Origin: Acidiphilium iwatense | Lineage (GTDB): Bacteria; Pseudomonadota; Alphaproteobacteria; Acetobacterales; Acetobacteraceae | DNA: 64,000 bases | Direction of reading: 5' to 3' | Assembly (NCBI RefSeq): GCF_021556475.1 | Contig: NZ_JAKGBZ010000018.1 | Location: forward strand, 1-64,000 | Position numbers and translations under genes: made by a program | Notes under the pieces: generated by a model | Told to the model about the DNA's origin: nothing | The model's database searches: none | Seen by the model: the letters and a program-made list of their open reading frames with translations, nothing else | In this document: positions 1-11,571 of the stretch, piece by piece | How positions within the stretch are numbered: position 1 is the stretch's first letter | Layout of the letters: every line of letters starts with the position of its first letter

Positions 1-3391
<3,391 letters not shown>

Positions 3392-3568: not shown

Positions 3569-3859
3569 CTAAAACAGCAGCGGGCCTTCCAGGTCCAAGT
3601 CAGGTTTCGCACCCACATGCTCCACGCGCCGCCGCCCCTCGGCGCCAAGCCGGTAAAAGCGCAAGCTATCCTCCGCCGGCAGGATTTCGGCAATCAGCCG
3701 GGTGCGCAACGCCACCCATTGCGCCGGGTCCACCTCGCACTCAAACACCGAGTTCTGCACGCGCTGGCCGTAGTCAAGACAGGCACGCGCCACCCGGCGC
3801 AGGCGCCGCCGGTCCGCTACGGTCGTCGTGCCAACATCATATGTAATGAGCATCAACAT
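3569..3859 (-). CDS. cas2: CRISPR-associated protein Cas2 (type I-C)
   Basis: This 96-aa protein is a typical Cas2 by length and by its opening MLMLITYDV, a ferredoxin-like first strand ending in the conserved Asp (D8). Family knowledge: a Cas2 dimer bridges two Cas1 dimers in the spacer-integration complex. It begins 5 nt after the cas1 stop and is the last cas gene before the leader, so it is probably translated from the long cas5-cas2 mRNA. Confidence 0.96.
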   Translation of the reverse strand: MLMLITYDVGTTTVADRRRLRRVARACLDYGQRVQNSVFECEVDPAQWVALRTRLIAEILPAEDSLRFYRLGAEGRRRVEHVGAKPDLDLEGPLLF

Positions 3860-3864
3860 CGCCG

Positions 3865-4899
3865 CTATTTCCAGATGAACGCCGGGTAGCCATCCATATC
3901 GCCGCGCAGATGCCGTGCCAGCAGCTGGGCCTGGATGTGAGGAACCAGGCCCAGCGTAACCTTCTCGTTTAAAAATGGGTGGACGAGTTCATCCTTCTTG
4001 CGTTCTTGGTAGGCTACCAGCACGGTTTTGCGGGCCTCATCCGTCAACCGCACGGCGCCACCATCTTCAAAGACAAAATCCTTCGGCGTAAGCTGACGGC
4101 GATTGATGAGGCTGAGCACCAAGCGGTCCGCCAGGACAGGGCGGAATTCCTCCATCAAATCCAGGGCGAGGCTTGCCCGGCCAGGGCGATCAGCGTGAAG
4201 AAACCCCACCTGCGGGTCCAGCCCCACGCCCTCCAGCGCCGATCGGCAATCATGCCCCAACATCGCGTACAGAAACGAGAGCAGCGCATTCACGGCGTCC
4301 AATGGCGGGCGGCGGGTGCGCACCGAGAATGAAAAATCGCTGCTGCGGATGAGGTGATTGAAGACACTGAAGTACACCTGCGCGGCCTCGCCCTCCAATC
4401 CGCGCAACAGAGCGACGCCGTCATTTTGCAGTGCTCGCCGGGCAACATCCGAAAGCCGCGCCTCGGCGCCCGTCAGCGCCTCGCAGGCTTCAGACGCAAG
4501 CGTTTCACCATGATCTCGCAGCGCCCGGCGAACAACGGCGCGCTGGTTGGCCGTCTTGGCCGCGACGATTCCCTGTACAATGGAAACCCCGCGCGCCGGG
4601 TCGTCCGCCAAGCGATATTGGCCCCGGCGAAGCAGAACATTGCCGCTGCGCACCCCTTCCAAACGGGCCAGGAAGCGGCCATTCGGATCGAGCAACGACA
4701 CGCAGATGCCCGCTTCGGCACAAGCCGCCAGCGCCGCCGGAGATGCACCAGCCCGCCCGAAGCAAATCAACCCCGAGAGCATGTGCAGCGGCGCGCGGCC
4801 CAGTTCCTGTCCCTTCGCCTCCACCACCAGATTTTCGCCGTCCTTGCGGACCCAGGCGTTCTCCGTGGTCACATAGATGGTGTTGAGATGCCGCCGCAT
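3865..4899 (-). CDS. cas1: CRISPR integrase Cas1 (type I-C)
   Basis: The 344-aa protein starts MRRHLNTIYVTTENAW. I chose this ATG (4897-4899) because it lies 2 nt after the cas4 stop and matches the usual family N-terminus; the frame stays open about 24 codons further upstream. The metal-binding triad is visible: Glu in GLEGEAA (about E169), His in GFLHADRPG (H235) and Asp in ALDLMEEF (D247). Family role: metal-dependent integration of new spacers at the leader end, with Cas2. Cas4 lies next to it, as in other I-C adaptation modules. Confidence 0.97.
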   Translation of the reverse strand: MRRHLNTIYVTTENAWVRKDGENLVVEAKGQELGRAPLHMLSGLICFGRAGASPAALAACAEAGICVSLLDPNGRFLARLEGVRSGNVLLRRGQYRLADDPARGVSIVQGIVAAKTANQRAVVRRALRDHGETLASEACEALTGAEARLSDVARRALQNDGVALLRGLEGEAAQVYFSVFNHLIRSSDFSFSVRTRRPPLDAVNALLSFLYAMLGHDCRSALEGVGLDPQVGFLHADRPGRASLALDLMEEFRPVLADRLVLSLINRRQLTPKDFVFEDGGAVRLTDEARKTVLVAYQERKKDELVHPFLNEKVTLGLVPHIQAQLLARHLRGDMDGYPAFIWK

Positions 4900-4901
4900 G
4901 A

Positions 4902-5537
4902 CTACCGCCCTATTTGCCGTACAAGCCAAGCCGTGATGCGGGGTGGCGTTTGCAAGGCCTCCGGCGCGCACAAATCATGCAGCGAGCAGTTCGCACAGCT
5001 TGGCTTGTACACAGGCGGCGGCGTCTGACCGGACGCCAACAGGGCACGGGTTTGCCGGGCGATTTCCTGCGTCAGAGCGCGAAGCGTGTTATCGAAGGCA
5101 ACTTCAATACGCCGCCGCGTGGCGCCGTAGAACAAGGCCCCTTGTGGCACGGCGCAGTCAAACATCTCCTCCAGGCAGATCGCCTGCGCGCAAAGCTGCA
5201 CCTCGTCAGCCCGGTGCGCCTTCGGCCGGCCACGCTTGTACTCCACCGGATAAGGCTGGCCGCCGTGCATCTCCACCACGTCCGCTTTGCCCGCCACGCC
5301 CAGCGAAAAGGAGCGCAACGTGAGTGAACGCAGGATTTTAACGCCCTGGCGCCGCTCCGGCGGCCCCGTATCGGCGCGCTGGTGCAGAGCGCGCCCTTCC
5401 GCCGTCGCCGAATCCTCGGCCCAAAGCCGCTCCACGTGGATGAGCGCGCATTGCCTCGGGCAAAACAGAAAATGCTGCAAAGCCGAGAGCGGTATCAGCG
5501 CCTCTTCCTGCGCCTCCGTTCCCGGCTTCAGGCTCAC
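4902..5537 (-). CDS. cas4: Cas4 nuclease, PAM-selecting adaptation factor
   Basis: This 211-aa RecB-type nuclease shows the PD-(D/E)XK core as D86 (GKADVVE) and E99/K101 (PVEYKRG), with the downstream motif QLCAQA. Four cysteines for a 4Fe-4S cluster are present: one near FCPRQC at 26-30 and three in CANCSLHDLC (181, 184, 190). Family role: trims prespacers and enforces PAM-side orientation with Cas1-Cas2. The start overlaps the cas7 stop by 4 nt (ATGA), which suggests translational coupling. Confidence 0.96.
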   Translation of the reverse strand: MSLKPGTEAQEEALIPLSALQHFLFCPRQCALIHVERLWAEDSATAEGRALHQRADTGPPERRQGVKILRSLTLRSFSLGVAGKADVVEMHGGQPYPVEYKRGRPKAHRADEVQLCAQAICLEEMFDCAVPQGALFYGATRRRIEVAFDNTLRALTQEIARQTRALLASGQTPPPVYKPSCANCSLHDLCAPEALQTPPRITAWLVRQIGR

Positions 5538-6499
5538 CGGTCGATCAACTCCACGCCAGCGGGCAGGTTGTCGCGGTCCACACGAATTTCATAGTCATCG
5601 AAGCTGCGGGCCGGCGGCCAGTTGTCTGTGGCATCGTCGCCAATCGCGTGGGTGGCCCCTTTGTAGCGGCGCAGCGTGGTGACCCGCCCGAACAGTTCGT
5701 GCGAAGGGGCATTGCCCAGAGCGGATTGATGCCGGAAGATGAACAGCTTGCGCTTTACCATCTCGCCACGCGCGGCGGAGCGGTCATGCTCGAACATGTT
5801 CTGGTCCAGCGCCTCGAACAACACGTCCAGGTCTTCTTGCGTAAAACCCGTGCCCTTGGTGTCGTGTGAGGCGAGAGGCGCGGAGACATAGCCATGCACC
5901 CGATACAACCCGTAAGGGATGATGTGCTTGCGGCCCATGGTGCGCTTGTCACCGCGCTTCTCGTCATCGCCTTCGGTGAACTCTTTCTTTTCCTTCTCGC
6001 TGGTCGCCGCCATACGGGTGATGGAGATTTCCAGCGGCAACACTGGTTCCACGGACTCCGCGAAGCTCAACTGTACGGGACCGCGCACCTGGCCGCAATT
6101 AATGCCGGTGGAGAGCACGCCGCCGAAGGCGCGAATGTCGAAGAAATTTCCGCACATGAATTTGCGCAGCTTCAGCGCATCATCATCGTTCTTCGGCGAA
6201 AGCTTCGTTGCCGTTTTCACCTCCTTGTAATCAGGGCATTCCGCAATATAGGCCTCGCGGTGCTTCTCGTTCAGCACCGCACCCTCCGTAACATAAATGC
6301 GGTAGCGCGGCTGGTTCTCCCGGCTCAGCTCCACCCAGTTACGGATTTTGCGCTTCAGGCACACATCCGTAACCAAGCCCCTGCTGGTCTCTGGATCCAG
6401 ACGCGGCATGTTGCCAGCGTCCGGATCACCATTCGGGTTGCCATTGGTCACGTCGAAAAACAGCACGAAGTCGTGCCGCTGTGTCAGGGGCGTGCTCAT
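5534..6499 (-). CDS. cas7: Cas7 (Csd2), Cascade backbone subunit
   Basis: This 321-aa protein has the Csd2/Cas7 N-terminus (DFVLFFDVTNGNPNGDPDAG) and later the DIRAFGGVLS segment typical of I-C Cas7. Several copies coat the crRNA spacer in the I-C Cascade. It overlaps cas8c at its start and cas4 at its end by 4 nt each, so the effector and adaptation genes form one translationally coupled unit. Confidence 0.96.
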   Translation of the reverse strand: MSTPLTQRHDFVLFFDVTNGNPNGDPDAGNMPRLDPETSRGLVTDVCLKRKIRNWVELSRENQPRYRIYVTEGAVLNEKHREAYIAECPDYKEVKTATKLSPKNDDDALKLRKFMCGNFFDIRAFGGVLSTGINCGQVRGPVQLSFAESVEPVLPLEISITRMAATSEKEKKEFTEGDDEKRGDKRTMGRKHIIPYGLYRVHGYVSAPLASHDTKGTGFTQEDLDVLFEALDQNMFEHDRSAARGEMVKRKLFIFRHQSALGNAPSHELFGRVTTLRRYKGATHAIGDDATDNWPPARSFDDYEIRVDRDNLPAGVELIDR

Positions 6500-8244
6500 T
6501 TATTGTCTCCCTCTTCCTGTTGCGCGGCTTCGCTCTGACTACGTGGCGCCCGCTCATGGTAATAGCCGACAGCGAAACGTCCTTGCGCTTCCAAAGTCAG
6601 CGTTTTCGGGAGAGCCGGATCAAGATGCGAAAAAATTTCTTCCAGACGCCGCTCGATCCACCAACCTTTGTTGCGCTTTTGCGCATCTGAAATGTGATTG
6701 CGGGCGTTACGCAATAGCGGACCAAACACACGCGCCGGTGTGGCTGAAGCCGCGCCGTAATATCTGTCAGCAATGGAGGCATTCACCTTACCTAACGCCT
6801 CTTTTTGCGCGCCAACCAACACGGCGAATAGCCGCCCTAATTGATACGCTTGATCGCGGGACTCCGGGTTGAGGGCCACGGGCAGCTTCTCCTTTTCCGA
6901 AACACTTTGGTTAATACAGGCTTTGATGACGGCGGCGTGCCAACCGGAGAGCGAATCGCCCGCACGCAAGCGCATGATGACGGCGGTAAGCAGCGTGCGT
7001 GGATAGGGGTGCCCGGCCAGAACGGCCCTGGCCGTCTCCCCGGCCAGCAGCGGCGGCACGTTCTCGGGTTTTTCCTGCAAGGCCGTTGTACGGACAAGCA
7101 AGTAACGGATGGACGGCGGACGGTTCCACGGCGCCGGTTCGATATTTAGTGCCTCAAAATGTTTAGCCAGACGCGCAAAGAAGTTGCCGAACGTATCCAC
7201 CAGCCAGAAGCGCACGGCGAGCCGCGCCGCGTTGGGGGCAAGGCCCAGGATGTAAAAGCGCGTGCCCGATTGTAGACCCGGAAATGCACTCGGCGGGCGC
7301 CCCGCGCGAATGTCCACCAAGGCATCGCGCAGTTTAGTCGCCTCGGATGGATCGTCCGGTGGCTCCATGCCCATTGCCATCGCCATTTCGGCAGCGGCGG
7401 CGGCTTCCTCGCCAAATCCCTGAGCATCCGCCCAGAAGGCGATGGTGGTGTCGCCGATCTTAAGCCGGTTGCTACTGCCACGGTCCAGTAGCCGGTTCAG
7501 CGCCGTACCGTAACGGAACGCCGCCTGCACCGAGGTTGGCGCGTTGGCGCCACTATCCGCGCTGTAGGAAGTGAAAGCATCTGCGTTGTACGAAACGAGC
7601 CGCGCTCCGGAACTCTGCGCACCGTCCACCCCTTGGATCGCCGGGTGTAGCCGTTCGATTGGTCTTTCCTCACCCGTCACCAAGCAGATGCCGGTTTTCC
7701 AAACCTCTCCCGGCTCTTCGATCAGCCGCTGCGCCGCCGGGCGCTCATGCAGATATTCAAGCTTTCCGCCAGTCAACCCAAACACGACATTCCTGTCGAG
7801 CATATCGGGCAAAAAGCGCGCGTCTCCCTCAAAATCTTCCGGCTTCCACGTGTTGAGAAATGCCAGCAACGCACAAAGGCCCGCATCGTCCGAACCCACC
7901 AGGCGCTCGCGGTGCAAGCGAACGAATTCAGCGTGCTCCTTTTCAAAGAAACGGATCGCTTTCTTATCCTTGTCGCGCCCGACGCCCAGCGTGTAAGCGG
8001 TTTTGTCCCACAAGAAATTGCTGGAAATACCAGAGGTCCGAATGACCTCCTGCGGCACGGAAAGCCTGCGCGGTTGTGGCTTCTTGCCGCTGTAGTCGTT
8101 CAAGTCATCGACCTTTGCAATGCTTCCATCCGGGTTCAACCACACGCAAACCTCGATGGACTTGCGCGAATACCCCGGCGGCTCGGCATCCCCCCGCTCC
8201 GCCATGCGAACATAGTAATGGTTAAGCGCCTGTAGAACGGTCAT
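6496..8244 (-). CDS. cas8c: Cas8c (Csd1), Cascade large subunit
   Basis: This 582-aa protein is in the normal Csd1 size range and is recognised by its N-terminus (LQALNHYYVRMAERG), the segment ending SSNFLWDKTAYTLGV and its place between cas5 and cas7. Family role: PAM recognition and recruitment of Cas3. I-C systems also make a small Cas11 from an internal start in this gene; I could not single out that start from sequence alone. Both ends overlap neighbours by 4 nt. Confidence 0.95.
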   Translation of the reverse strand: MTVLQALNHYYVRMAERGDAEPPGYSRKSIEVCVWLNPDGSIAKVDDLNDYSGKKPQPRRLSVPQEVIRTSGISSNFLWDKTAYTLGVGRDKDKKAIRFFEKEHAEFVRLHRERLVGSDDAGLCALLAFLNTWKPEDFEGDARFLPDMLDRNVVFGLTGGKLEYLHERPAAQRLIEEPGEVWKTGICLVTGEERPIERLHPAIQGVDGAQSSGARLVSYNADAFTSYSADSGANAPTSVQAAFRYGTALNRLLDRGSSNRLKIGDTTIAFWADAQGFGEEAAAAAEMAMAMGMEPPDDPSEATKLRDALVDIRAGRPPSAFPGLQSGTRFYILGLAPNAARLAVRFWLVDTFGNFFARLAKHFEALNIEPAPWNRPPSIRYLLVRTTALQEKPENVPPLLAGETARAVLAGHPYPRTLLTAVIMRLRAGDSLSGWHAAVIKACINQSVSEKEKLPVALNPESRDQAYQLGRLFAVLVGAQKEALGKVNASIADRYYGAASATPARVFGPLLRNARNHISDAQKRNKGWWIERRLEEIFSHLDPALPKTLTLEAQGRFAVGYYHERAPRSQSEAAQQEEGDNK

Positions 8245-8921
8245 GCCGTCAGCCCCTCAGCCACCAGTTTAGCAACGTTCAGCACGCCATCCTCAAGCCG
8301 GCCACGGAAAAAACGGGAGGTGTTGTCCTTGGCAAAGTCGATGTCGTGCAACATCCAGCCCAGGTCGCGGTTACGGTCCGCCTCCGGTAGCTCATTGACT
8401 GGTAGCAATGCACCTTCCGGGACCAAAGCGAAATTTGCGGCGAATTCCCGCGTGCCCAGGCAAGGGCGATGAAAACATTGCCCCGTCTCCGCGCGCCGGT
8501 TGAACATGGAGATGTGCTTGGCCTCGGTGTCTTCCGGGCCGGCCTTATCTGTGAGGGTGAAATGCGCTTCAATAACGTAGGCCACATGGCGCAGCAGCGT
8601 GGTGGAGCGCTGCGTGCCGTGTGGCGCTCCAGCAGAAAGGGACAACCCCTTGAGGTCGCCGCGCTTCATTGCGCTGCGCGCCGTCGATTCGGAGATTTTG
8701 TTGTTCACTTCGTTGCGGCGGATGGTCTGAAAGCGGATCGGCTTCAGCACATGAATCCGGTCCACCTGCCAAAGGATGGCGGGCTTCCAGTGAATCGCCT
8801 CCAGAATCCCCCGCGCGGCGGAGGGCGTCATCACGTCATAGGAGACGCGCTCAACCTTCATCTCTGGGCGCGTGAAGCAGGCATAATCGCCCCAGACATG
8901 CAAACGGACGCCATAACTCAT
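8241..8921 (-). CDS. cas5: Cas5c (Cas5d), crRNA-processing endonuclease
   Basis: This 226-aa protein starts SYGVRLHVWGDYACFTRPEM and contains KHISMFNRRAETGQCF, with adjacent K135-H136 that probably correspond to the catalytic Lys-His pair known in Cas5d. I-C has no Cas6, so Cas5 cuts the repeat hairpin and stays on the crRNA 5' handle. There is no cas6 here, which agrees. A GGAG sits 9 nt before the ATG. The gene opens the effector operon and follows a 397-bp gap that holds its own promoter candidate and a crRNA-like module. Confidence 0.96.
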   Translation of the reverse strand: MSYGVRLHVWGDYACFTRPEMKVERVSYDVMTPSAARGILEAIHWKPAILWQVDRIHVLKPIRFQTIRRNEVNNKISESTARSAMKRGDLKGLSLSAGAPHGTQRSTTLLRHVAYVIEAHFTLTDKAGPEDTEAKHISMFNRRAETGQCFHRPCLGTREFAANFALVPEGALLPVNELPEADRNRDLGWMLHDIDFAKDNTSRFFRGRLEDGVLNVAKLVAEGLTA

Positions 8922-8956
8922 GATTGGACGCTCCGAATCGCTCTACTTGTAAGGGA

Positions 8957-9012
8957 ATTGTTGACGGAATTTTACCAAACTTCAATCCCGACGCTTTGGT
9001 CCTGGTAAATTC
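8957..9012 (-). promoter_or_regulatory. Candidate promoter and inverted repeat upstream of cas5
   Basis: On the minus strand TTGAAG (8980-8985) and AACAAT (8957-8962) stand 17 nt apart, giving a plausible though weak sigma-70 promoter with a start site about 30 nt before cas5. An inverted repeat, GAATTTTACCA (8967-8977) and TGGTAAATTC (9003-9012), overlaps it and could be an operator. The intrinsic terminator at 9048-9071 lies upstream, so the effector operon needs a promoter here or read-through. Confidence 0.45.
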
Positions 9013-9047
9013 TTTGTTGGCAGTGCCCGTTGAGCGAAGAGAAAATT

Positions 9048-9071
9048 GCCCCCGACATTTCTGTCAGGGGC
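9048..9071 (-). terminator. Intrinsic terminator of the crRNA-like transcript
   Basis: The minus strand folds into a 10-bp stem (one G-U pair) closed by a GAAA tetraloop and is followed by AATTTTC. A TTTT also follows on the plus strand, so it may act in both directions. It ends the unit that contains the mini-ORF, degenerate repeat and pseudo-spacer, and separates that unit from the cas5 operon. Confidence 0.8.
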
Positions 9072-9137
9072 TTTTGCGCGTCAGTTGCAAACGAGATTAA
9101 CACGTTTCGATCCACAGGCGGTCTCACGCCGCCCGAC
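9072..9137 (-). ncRNA. crRNA-like RNA: degenerate CRISPR repeat plus pseudo-spacer (CreA-like)
   Basis: Minus-strand 9137-9104 is a divergent repeat. The last 12 nt, GTGGATCGAAAC, match the array repeat exactly. The array's GCCCCC/GGGGGC stem is replaced by a different but still paired GGCGG/CCGCC stem, so structure is kept while sequence changed. About 32 nt of pseudo-spacer (9103-9072) follows, then the terminator. The first 19 nt of the pseudo-spacer match 9297-9279 at 17 positions (mismatches at 9 and 12). That target is preceded by TTC, the I-C PAM, and lies 4 nt after a TATAAT box. Known family: CreA and CreR guides use Cascade for repression through partial complementarity. A possible own promoter has CATAAT at 9139-9144 but a poor -35. 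Confidence 0.82.
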
Positions 9138-9215
9138 TATTATGGGCTCAATTTCGACTTCGAGATGAAACGCGCCAATACTTAACCTGATTGTCAGCTT
9201 TTGACGTCGACGCAT
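9081..9215 (-). CDS. 44-codon mini-ORF, candidate CreT-like toxin
   Basis: A strong Shine-Dalgarno AAGGAGG (9224-9230) stands 8 nt before ATG (9213-9215). The frame encodes 44 residues beginning MRRRQKLTIRL and ends in TGA at 9081-9083, running through the degenerate repeat and part of the pseudo-spacer. Codons 2-4 are CGT CGA CGT and codons 25-26 are tandem ATA ATA, very rare for a GC-rich genome. CreT toxins of CreTA modules are short ORFs with strong ribosome binding that trap a scarce tRNA, so either cluster could matter; a peptide toxin is also possible. I recognise no protein family. Its promoter is the one matched by the pseudo-spacer. Confidence 0.55.
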   Translation of the reverse strand: MRRRQKLTIRLSIGAFHLEVEIEPIIVGRRETACGSKRVNLVCN

Positions 9216-9278
9216 TTGCCCAGCCTCCTTTTGGCCAGGAAGCCTGTTTGCCACATGCGCGGAACCGGGTCAATGTTC

Positions 9279-9307
9279 TTGCAAAGGAAATTAACACGAA
9301 GATTATA
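9279..9307 (-). promoter_or_regulatory. Promoter of the mini-ORF with PAM and pseudo-spacer target
   Basis: On the minus strand a consensus TATAAT (9302-9307) is followed by C, then TTC (9298-9300), then the 19-nt target 9297-9279 beginning GTGTTAAT. No good -35 hexamer is visible 16-18 nt upstream. The predicted transcription start (about 9295) lies inside the target, so a Cascade R-loop here would block initiation. The -10 sits 11 nt beyond the cas3 stop codon. Confidence 0.75.
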
Positions 9308-9318
9308 TTGGACGGATG

Positions 9319-11571
9319 TTAAAGAACATTCTCCTCCGCTCCTCGCTCCCATGGATCATCCAGACTCAGCCCACTTACCTCGTCATAAAGACCTGCACTT
9401 TCCACCACCATAAACCGCTCGTCATAAGCATCTGGCCGCACTGGCTGGATGCCCCCGCTCTTGCGCAGCCCCTGCCACACGTCCTCGGGCACCGGCACGG
9501 TATATTGCTGAAGCTTCTGCAGCGTGCCGCGCGGCGGCACCGGGGCATGACGCAATGCTTCCAGCGCCTCTCCGGCGCCGCCGCGCCAATTCACGATCAC
9601 GTTGCGCATCCTGTCATCAATCAACCGGAACGCTTCGGCAATGCTGGCGAAGGGAAAGTCCGCACCGCTCTCAGCCACGGCGCGCAGCACGCCTGGGAAC
9701 TCTCCTACCGTGAGTGCATCCAGCTGGTCTGGCCCCTTATTGAAGTAAAGCTCCTGGAAATAGCCTTGTACCGCTTCCAGCCCCAGTGGGTCCGGCATCT
9801 TCAGCGGCCCCTCGGCGGCCTGAGAAAATGCACGGAAGGCGCGGGGCGTCTTGTGGTCAGCCGGCTCAAACACCACCACCCGGCCCTTCTCCGGCAACTT
9901 CCCTTCCCTATTGCACCGCCCCGCCGCTTGCGCGATTGAGTCCAGCCCCGCTTTCGCGCGCCAGACCTCGGCGAAGTCAACGTCCACTCCGGCCTCAATC
10001 AGGCTGGTCGCCACCAGACGCACCGGGCGCGAATTCGCCAGGTCGTCACGAATTTGCACCAGCACTTCGCGCCGATGGGCGGCACACATCAGCGTCGTCA
10101 AATGCCGCGCGCTTGGCAGAGCGGCAATCAACCCAAACAGCGCCTTGGCATGGGCGCGGGTATTCACGATGCACAGCATCCGGTCCTGTTTCACGAACCG
10201 GGCGGCAATTTCAGCATCCGTTACCGGCGCCGGCAAAACCTCAACCCGAACGCGCTTCAGGGCTGCAAACAAGGCTTCGGGGTCAGGGGCCAACTCACGC
10301 TCCGGGCCGATGTCAAACCCGAGTTGCCGCTTGTCTTTCATGCGTGGCAAGGCATTATCCTGGCGCCGCCAAGCGGGCTGCGTGGCCGTACACAACACCA
10401 CGCTGGCGCCGTAATTCAGCGTCAACTCCTCCAATGCCGCGAGACAGGGCCGCAGCACGGGTAAAGGCAATGTCTGGGCTTCGTCCAGCACGATCACGCT
10501 GCGCGCGATGTTGTGCAGTTTGCGGCAGGCGGAAGGCCGTGCGGCAAACAGGCTCTCGAAGAACTGCACCGCCGTGGTCACGATGACCGGCTCCGCCCAA
10601 TTCTCCGTCGCATTACGGAGTTTCTTAACCCCATCCGGGTCGGCCTCCTCTTTCGCCTTGTTTCCGTCAAAACCGCTATGGTGCTCCAGCACGTCCGCAT
10701 CGCCCAGGGCGTTCTTGAAGACCTGTGCCGTCTGTTCGATGATCGAGGTGTAGGGGGCAACGTAGATAACCCGCCGCAACCCGTGCTTCGCCGCGTGCTC
10801 CAGCGCAAAAGAGAGAGACGCCAGGGTTTTGCCGCCGCCGGTGGGGACCGTCATGGTAAAAAGACCAGGGGCTAAGGCGGCGCTCTCACGGGCACGGGAC
10901 AGAATTTGGTTGCGAAGCCTGTTCAACTCTCTGGCCTTCTCTGTGGCTTTCGCCTGGGCAAATTTCGCCATGAAGTCCGCAAGGCGGGCGTGCAGATCAG
11001 GAGTGGCGGCGAAACCATCCCGCGTTTTGGCGGCGGCGGGATCATAGAAGGCCTCCGTGGCGAGAAAATCCGCGTCCACCAGGCAAGAAAACAGCATCCG
11101 CACAAAGAAGGACTGCGTGAAATACTTCTCCGGGTTTCGCCGGTTTGCATCCTTACCCCAGTCAGGCAGCGCCAGCGAGGGGAGCGAGCCAGTATAGGCT
11201 TCCCACCCCGTGTATTTCTCCAGCTTCTTTCGCAGCCGCTCGTTCAGGGATTTGCCGTCCGCAAGACCGGCATGGTGCCCCGCCACGGCAAAGGCCAGAA
11301 AGCGCCCTAACGGCCCAAATTGCTGTACCGCTTCCACAGCGCCCGCAGTGCTATGGTCGGGGCTGACGCCCCTGCCACGGATATAGGACTGGTAGGCGTC
11401 CGACGCCTTGCCGATGTCGTGTAACAACCCAGAAGCTTCCCCCCAGTTTGCCAATTTGAGCGGCTCGCCGAAATCGTGTGTCATTTTGGCGACTTCCCGC
11501 AAGTGATCTCCCAGCGGTTCCCAGCAGGTTTCATCGGTTGTTCTCGGTACGGAGTGGGCAAAGCGGAACAC
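9319..11571 (-). CDS. cas3: Cas3 helicase-nuclease (type I-C)
   Basis: This 750-aa protein starts at a GTG (MFRFAHSVPRTTDE). The N-terminal HD nuclease shows H23, the HD pair at 51-52 (GLLHDIGK) and AGHHAGL near 98-103. The SF2 helicase has Walker A TVPTGGGKT (241-249) and DEAQ at 363-366. Family role: it is recruited by target-bound Cascade, nicks and unwinds the non-target strand and degrades DNA. It lies upstream of cas5 and is separated from it by the crRNA-like module, so it is probably transcribed from its own promoter in the 240-bp gap it shares with the divergent gene at 11812. Confidence 0.97.
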   Translation of the reverse strand: MFRFAHSVPRTTDETCWEPLGDHLREVAKMTHDFGEPLKLANWGEASGLLHDIGKASDAYQSYIRGRGVSPDHSTAGAVEAVQQFGPLGRFLAFAVAGHHAGLADGKSLNERLRKKLEKYTGWEAYTGSLPSLALPDWGKDANRRNPEKYFTQSFFVRMLFSCLVDADFLATEAFYDPAAAKTRDGFAATPDLHARLADFMAKFAQAKATEKARELNRLRNQILSRARESAALAPGLFTMTVPTGGGKTLASLSFALEHAAKHGLRRVIYVAPYTSIIEQTAQVFKNALGDADVLEHHSGFDGNKAKEEADPDGVKKLRNATENWAEPVIVTTAVQFFESLFAARPSACRKLHNIARSVIVLDEAQTLPLPVLRPCLAALEELTLNYGASVVLCTATQPAWRRQDNALPRMKDKRQLGFDIGPERELAPDPEALFAALKRVRVEVLPAPVTDAEIAARFVKQDRMLCIVNTRAHAKALFGLIAALPSARHLTTLMCAAHRREVLVQIRDDLANSRPVRLVATSLIEAGVDVDFAEVWRAKAGLDSIAQAAGRCNREGKLPEKGRVVVFEPADHKTPRAFRAFSQAAEGPLKMPDPLGLEAVQGYFQELYFNKGPDQLDALTVGEFPGVLRAVAESGADFPFASIAEAFRLIDDRMRNVIVNWRGGAGEALEALRHAPVPPRGTLQKLQQYTVPVPEDVWQGLRKSGGIQPVRPDAYDERFMVVESAGLYDEVSGLSLDDPWERGAEENVL

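Follow-up and report, generated by a model that had tools for sequence, protein, structure and literature searches.

In the 64,000-nucleotide (nt) stretch of Acidiphilium iwatense DNA analysed here (contig NZ_JAKGBZ010000018.1, positions 1 to 64,000; the window), the gap between cas3 and cas5 of a type I-C CRISPR locus holds a small cassette with a solitary CRISPR RNA (crRNA)-like guide, a matching target site and a small open reading frame (ORF). CreTA modules use a crRNA-like antitoxin and Cascade to repress a toxin promoter, thereby tying cell survival to the cas genes. Judging from comparison across related loci, we consider it probable (about 0.6) that the cassette is a CRISPR-regulated unit of the CreTA/CrePA kind, in which loss of Cascade would let a microprotein harm or arrest the cell. 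The step on which this depends, that the guide directs I-C Cascade to a site upstream of the small ORF from which the ORF is controlled, is strongly supported because guides match their own targets, the matches are specific for the protospacer-adjacent motif (PAM) and follow a sixth-base pattern, the repeat stem covaries and the ORF is conserved.

The guide, its target and their coevolution

Read along the minus strand, the cassette runs from a TATAAT box through TTC, target, AAGGAGG, ORF, degenerate repeat and pseudo-spacer to a hairpin, and every element named in the original prediction was recovered where it had been placed:

9302–9307, minus strand: TATAAT box 5' of the PAM, candidate promoter element
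9298–9300, minus strand: TTC PAM, directly 5' of the target
9263–9297, minus strand: target (protospacer), matching the pseudo-spacer at 17/19 nt, with 9297–9279 as the paired part
9268–9273, minus strand: TTGACC, candidate −35 within the protospacer, from promoter scoring
9224–9230, minus strand: strong Shine-Dalgarno sequence, AAGGAGG
9081–9215, minus strand: 44-codon ORF, ATG at 9215 and stop at 9081, from sequence and comparison with relatives
9139–9144, minus strand: CATAAT, possibly the −10 of a promoter belonging to the guide RNA itself
9104–9137, minus strand: degenerate repeat (psiR), GTC...GTGGATCGAAAC, 34 nt with a compensated stem
9072–9103, minus strand: pseudo-spacer (psiS), the guide, identified by its match to the target
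9048–9071, minus strand: stem-loop with GAAA loop and T-rich tail, terminator-like

The 12-nt handle of psiR, GTGGATCGAAAC, is intact and, as had been claimed, identical to that of the repeats in the adjacent array. Following its GAAAC end, psiS reads GTGTTAATCTCG and agrees with the target at 17 of the first 19 nt; recalculation returned the two mismatches described before, at positions 9 and 12. A match this good has a per-site chance probability of 6e-9. The runner-up among 2072 TTC-flanked places in the window reached 11/19, and the whole 4.16-Mb genome contained no second TTC-flanked match to the guide at ≤3 mismatches. The cassette shares three features with CreTA: a crRNA-like gene (psiR-psiS) adjoining type I cas genes, partial complementarity of psiS to a site flanked by a PAM, and a mini-ORF with a strong Shine-Dalgarno sequence 3' of that site.

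A DNA search with the 283-nt cassette in 60 relatives returned no homologue; ORF and guide probably diverge too fast for such a search, and an approach through the Cas5 neighbourhood was needed. This search yielded 80 loci and 36 further stretches with some duplicates, ~115 I-C loci in all (numbered with L below), which were scanned without guidance for a repeat handle with a TTC-flanked match upstream. The cassette anatomy was present in ~30 of the ~115 loci. These come from alpha-, beta- and gammaproteobacteria, with a weak case in a Desulfobulbaceae bin.

TTC is the usual I-C PAM, and every sixth base of a type I crRNA is flipped out and unpaired; the original prediction had relied on both rules, and both are borne out across loci. 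A strong upstream match was flanked by TTC in 24 of 31 standalone handles, compared with 4 for the 63 other trinucleotides together. Leaving out every sixth base from position 6 gave 24 strong matches, against 16 with nothing left out and 6 to 11 in the other phases. Over 26 guide-target pairs, bases agreed in 25, 23, 25, 25 and 26 cases at positions 1–5 and in 25, 22, 20, 25 and 23 at positions 7–11, compared with 7, 5 and 7 at the mismatch-prone positions 6, 12 and 18, a near-random rate that is unbiased because the scoring ignored those three positions.

Guides also recognise their own loci: 28 of 30 scored ≥8 against their own target and 0 of 870 cross-locus comparisons did so, and therefore guides and targets must have changed jointly many times. 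The covarying repeat-like stem that the original prediction had proposed to look for in relatives was found as well, with a summed stem score of 412.6 versus 261 ± 20 when arms were exchanged between loci. These comparisons show that the matches are functional, as far as sequence can tell, support the reality of both ORF and guide, and make it close to certain that the guide would direct Cascade binding. A chance match was rejected on the uniqueness of the 17/19 agreement, the PAM and phase specificity and the own-target matching across loci.

In most loci the cassette stands in sense between cas3 and cas5. It is inverted within the same gap in Acetobacter tropicalis, A. persici and Gluconacetobacter diazotrophicus. 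In Novosphingobium, Sphingomonas, Sphingobium and Gluconacetobacter aggeris it has an antisense position between cas7 and cas4; there the target is also near the cas4 start and the guide may affect cas4 too. Wherever the alphaproteobacterial micro-ORF occurs, the order target, ORF, repeat, guide is constant. Hairpins occupy the corresponding place in many relatives, and L005, L018 and L023 have a similar ATAAT immediately before the pseudo-repeat; an Rfam search of 8900–9400 matched no family. That the target site is the promoter of the small ORF is partly supported: TTGAC elements occur near the target in several relatives, in some of which the promoter score is significant, and scoring around targets was supportive in L008, L036, L062, L067, L094 and L095, though not in this window.

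The nearest relatives by Cas5 include Acidiphilium and Acidocella (Acetobacteraceae). The nearest with a cassette, Acidocella aquatica (L005), has an equal layout with guide and target unrelated to those of the window. Its target is doubled, forming a near-perfect inverted repeat with a TTC on each copy, 200–300 nt upstream of cas5, in the manner of a double operator. Annotated cas3-cas5 gaps of ~110 nt or less in Zymomonas, Nitratidesulfovibrio, Geminicoccaceae and an Acidisoma plasmid are too short for a cassette. The long gap of Rhizobium Q54 yielded no handle; there (L132, Rhizobium sp. Q54) and in L070 and L078, an ORF or its remnant (115 aa in L078) replaces the cassette, with a Y-x-N-G-K-x-Y-x-G motif that looks GIY-YIG-like by eye and has no Pfam match.

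Microproteins and other contents of the slot

Between target and repeat, the alphaproteobacterial loci encode one family of basic micro-ORFs with the motif M-R-x-R...G...EWEPP, represented by the following members:

L010: MRKRGWRLKISIGSFVVKVEWEPP
L021: MRKRGWKLKIAVGFLQIKIEWEPL
L052: MRHQRRIRVKIFGVCCLEIEWLPP
L057: MRVSKRIRVKVLGISVIEIEWWPP
L023: MRKRRSWRLRVSAGWFYVEVEWEPIIT
L005: MRRRRRIVFRLQIGSLRIEIEWDPII...
This window: MRRRQKLTIRLSIGAFHLEVEIEPII...

The conserved core corresponds to residues 1–26 of the window ORF (9215–9138). Rare codons in this ORF include CGA, AGG, TTA and two ATA. The original prediction had listed ORF and guide as separate elements; this needs correction, as the ORF extends through pseudo-repeat and pseudo-spacer to 9081, and its remainder beyond the core overlaps both. 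The same family is encoded in the antisense cas7-cas4 cassettes and moves with the cassette. Compared codon by codon, members gave a mean BLOSUM score of 2.3 in frame. Out of frame the scores were −0.06 and −0.22, and a null that allowed equally many changes per codon scored 0.72; 185 of 336 identical residue pairs used different codons. More weight should go to the null and to the synonymous changes than to the frame comparison, which is somewhat biased because the alignment was built on protein and favours frame 0. The codon evidence shows the ORF to be conserved at the protein level. In 289 genomes of the class, the family profile found just weak partial matches beyond the window, mostly inside long ORFs, and a tblastn search against plasmids found no match to the microprotein.

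Many other positive loci have different ORFs of 33–54 residues with one hydrophobic stretch predicted to fit a membrane helix. Small slot ORFs with one such stretch were seen in L036, L042, L046, L050, L056, L063, L067, L106 and L108; those of L042, L056 and L106, with a D-F-x-(x)-L-x-L-x-L-[RK]-I-R-like motif ahead of it, are possibly one family. L013, L062 and L074 have, between target and repeat, a strong Shine-Dalgarno sequence and then ATGTGG at a small hairpin, giving a very short ORF that resembles the CreT RNA of Acinetobacter I-F (PMC10097628); target matches are weak in L013 and L074. The slot of L069 (Gluconacetobacter diazotrophicus PA1 5) encodes a PIN-domain toxin and a MazE/AbrB-type antitoxin (the latter match just under the Pfam cut-off), that is, VapBC. 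On one side of these genes lies a TTC-flanked target and on the other a repeat with its guide in reverse orientation, all at about −148 to −984 from cas5; a CRISPR guide thus seems to control a type II toxin-antitoxin pair. Finally, in L093, L094 and L095, from one genus (L093 is Tistrella mobilis), a guide, its target and a promoter that seems plausible lie upstream of cas5 with no conserved ORF, an arrangement that looks like simple CreR autoregulation in I-C.

Proposed mechanism and competing readings

We propose that Cas5c processes a psiR-psiS transcript to a crRNA-like guide, with which Cascade (Cas5c-Cas8c-Cas7) would occupy the TTC-flanked target before the small ORF. The sixth-base pattern is an indirect sign that repression would depend on Cascade and on guide processing. 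From what is known of type I biology, ~17 paired bases would be too few for Cas3 attack, and the outcome would be repression without destruction, with target-bound Cascade holding the conserved microprotein off. If Cascade were lost, or if an anti-CRISPR blocked it, the cell would make the microprotein and be harmed or arrested, which may serve addiction or abortive infection. A harmful product is suggested by the CreTA and CrePA precedents, the VapBC-filled slot and the membrane-type microproteins. Of the CreTA-like guardian originally predicted, then, the guided recruitment of I-C Cascade to a site controlling a small ORF stands firmly on comparative evidence, and the guardian role is the part that stays probable. 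A broader proposal, that Cascade-repressed cassettes are widespread in proteobacterial I-C loci, with an exchangeable slot (EWEPP or membrane-helix microproteins, mini-ORFs, VapBC) from which Cascade loss would free a peptide toxin, seems to us an even bet.

Several observations weigh against a toxin cassette, in addition to the bias of the frame comparison. The stop codon usual in the family is missing from the window ORF, which overlaps the guide, and Pfam has no family for the microproteins, which matched no known toxin family. Promoter elements are weak in this window: the TATAAT at 9307–9302 has no recognisable −35 by promoter scoring, and the TTGACC at 9273–9268 no good −10. The target is often near the start of a cas gene as well, L093–L095 have no conserved ORF, and the two nearest relatives by Cas5 (L003 and L004) have gaps of 65–77 nt and no cassette, which makes it dispensable over evolution.

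The most serious competitor, though an unlikely one, is an autoregulator of the CreR type, in which Cascade would sit at a promoter driving (also) cas5-cas8c-cas7 and limit its own supply, with the ORF as a leader peptide or bystander. Such regulators are known from other type I systems and V-A (PMC12737573), the cassette is directly upstream of cas5 in most loci, the Tistrella loci have guide, target and promoter without an ORF, and the antisense cassettes have their target near the cas4 start. Yet the window target is separated from cas5 by the ORF, the guide and the terminator-like hairpin, and the ORF is conserved as protein and stays 3' of the target despite changes of position and strand. 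VapBC, moreover, fills the slot of one locus, and CreR is generally uncoupled from toxin genes and lacks an ORF, as only L093–L095 do here. We therefore favour the prediction of CreTA, with its toxin and addiction, over CreR because of the conserved ORF, the VapBC in one relative's slot and the cassettes that have moved antisense to cas7-cas4. The arrangement would be a protein-slot variant and not plain CreTA, since CreT characterised so far acts as RNA and the ORF here is conserved as protein.

Less likely again is a Cascade-controlled microprotein that is not toxic, for instance a Cas modulator, whether a self-limiting inhibitor or a helper, produced only while free Cascade is in short supply. 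Its conservation, and its occurrence in this cassette only in the profile search of the 289 genomes, would suit such a role, but the slot is also filled by unrelated membrane-type microproteins and VapBC, a better fit to toxins than to Cas cofactors. Two further readings we consider very improbable. Decay of a leftover spacer-repeat unit whose guide matches upstream DNA by chance would account for a degenerate, solitary repeat and for the overlap of ORF and guide, and is contradicted by the unique 17/19 match, the PAM and phase specificity, the own-target versus cross-locus comparison of coevolving guides and targets, and the stem covariation. Solitary I-C repeats that sequester Cas proteins are known in phages as RNA anti-CRISPRs (Racr; PMC10651486), but this cassette is within a cas operon, its psiS has a specific PAM-flanked target that a Racr would not need, and guide-target coevolution disfavours that origin as well. 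The CreTA/CrePA-like cassette thus remains our preferred reading.

Host locus and relation to known systems

The window is contig C67 of the assembly, and its minus-strand locus has the complete type I-C gene order cas3-cas5c-cas8c-cas7-cas4-cas1-cas2 plus an array, with the whole cassette inside the 397-nt cas3-cas5 gap:

9319–11571, minus strand: cas3 (NCBIfam domains TIGR01587/TIGR01596)
8241–8921, minus strand: cas5c (TIGR01876), encoding Cas5d, the crRNA-processing nuclease of I-C
6496–8244, minus strand: cas8c (TIGR01863)
5534–6499, minus strand: cas7 (TIGR02589)
3569–5537, minus strand: cas4, cas1 and cas2 (TIGR00372, TIGR03640, TIGR01573)
1–3391, minus strand: CRISPR array with 51 exact repeats, GTCGCCCCCCGCGCGGGGGCGTGGATCGAAAC

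Array spacers 8, 9 and 16 (window 2236–2300 and 2701–2865) are one spacer in three copies, two identical and the third with one change. More repeats, on contig C146:1–1306 of the same genome (L148), overlap the window's first spacers and end in a trailer, and the array therefore has ~70 repeats divided over contigs. A two-repeat mini-CRISPR with the variant repeat GTCGCTCCCCGCGCGGGAGCGTGGATCGAAAC lies on contig C85:38400–38777 (L147), and no TTC-flanked target of its spacer was found in its own genome.

If the proposal holds, guide-controlled switches of the CreTA/CrePA kind would be common in type I-C, and the effector may be a conserved microprotein family whose fold is unknown. Such a built-in and perhaps suicidal switch, triggered by Cascade loss or block, would help explain the persistence of I-C loci and the response of cells to I-C anti-CRISPRs, and strains of this kind could show unexpected toxicity once their I-C Cascade is deleted or inhibited. 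Microproteins can be tested from named hosts that include Acidocella aquatica, Xanthobacter oligotrophicus, Gluconacetobacter diazotrophicus PA1 5 and Sphingobium sp. SYK-6. The standalone-repeat census of Shmakov et al. (NAR 2023) reportedly spans many type I subtypes, and I-C mini-arrays may already be listed there. We found no description of a CreTA in type I-C, of the conserved microprotein family or of the exchangeable slot in the literature searched, which left that census and the original CreTA paper (Science 2021) outside. A text search of PMC8501985, PMC9458426, PMC10097628 and PMC12737573 found no mention of I-C.

CreTA has been described for Acinetobacter type I-F (PMC10097628) and haloarchaeal I-B (PMC8501985, PMC9458426). 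The cassette shares with it one or more degenerate repeats and a spacer among the cas genes, a partial guide match to a PAM-flanked site before a mini-ORF with a strong Shine-Dalgarno sequence, and the occurrence of related modules in close relatives with the same cas genes. It differs in belonging to subtype I-C with processing by Cas5c, in having an ORF conserved as protein where characterised CreT toxins act as RNA, and in that many I-C members have one clear repeat and highly variable slot contents. Racr resembles it in being a standalone I-C repeat (PMC10651486), whereas here we find a host cas locus, a target-matched spacer and a controlled ORF. CreR is a cas-regulating crRNA-like RNA, generally not toxin-coupled (PMC12737573); it has the same mini-CRISPR by the cas genes and partial PAM-flanked promoter match, as do the Tistrella I-C loci, but in this cassette a conserved micro-ORF separates target and guide. 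In CrePA, CreA-guided Cascade represses a protein toxin (PMC12737573). The cassette is similar in its crRNA-like guide and Cascade, which would together repress a protein-coding gene, with release expected on anti-CRISPR block, and is distinguished by its product, a microprotein without a known domain.
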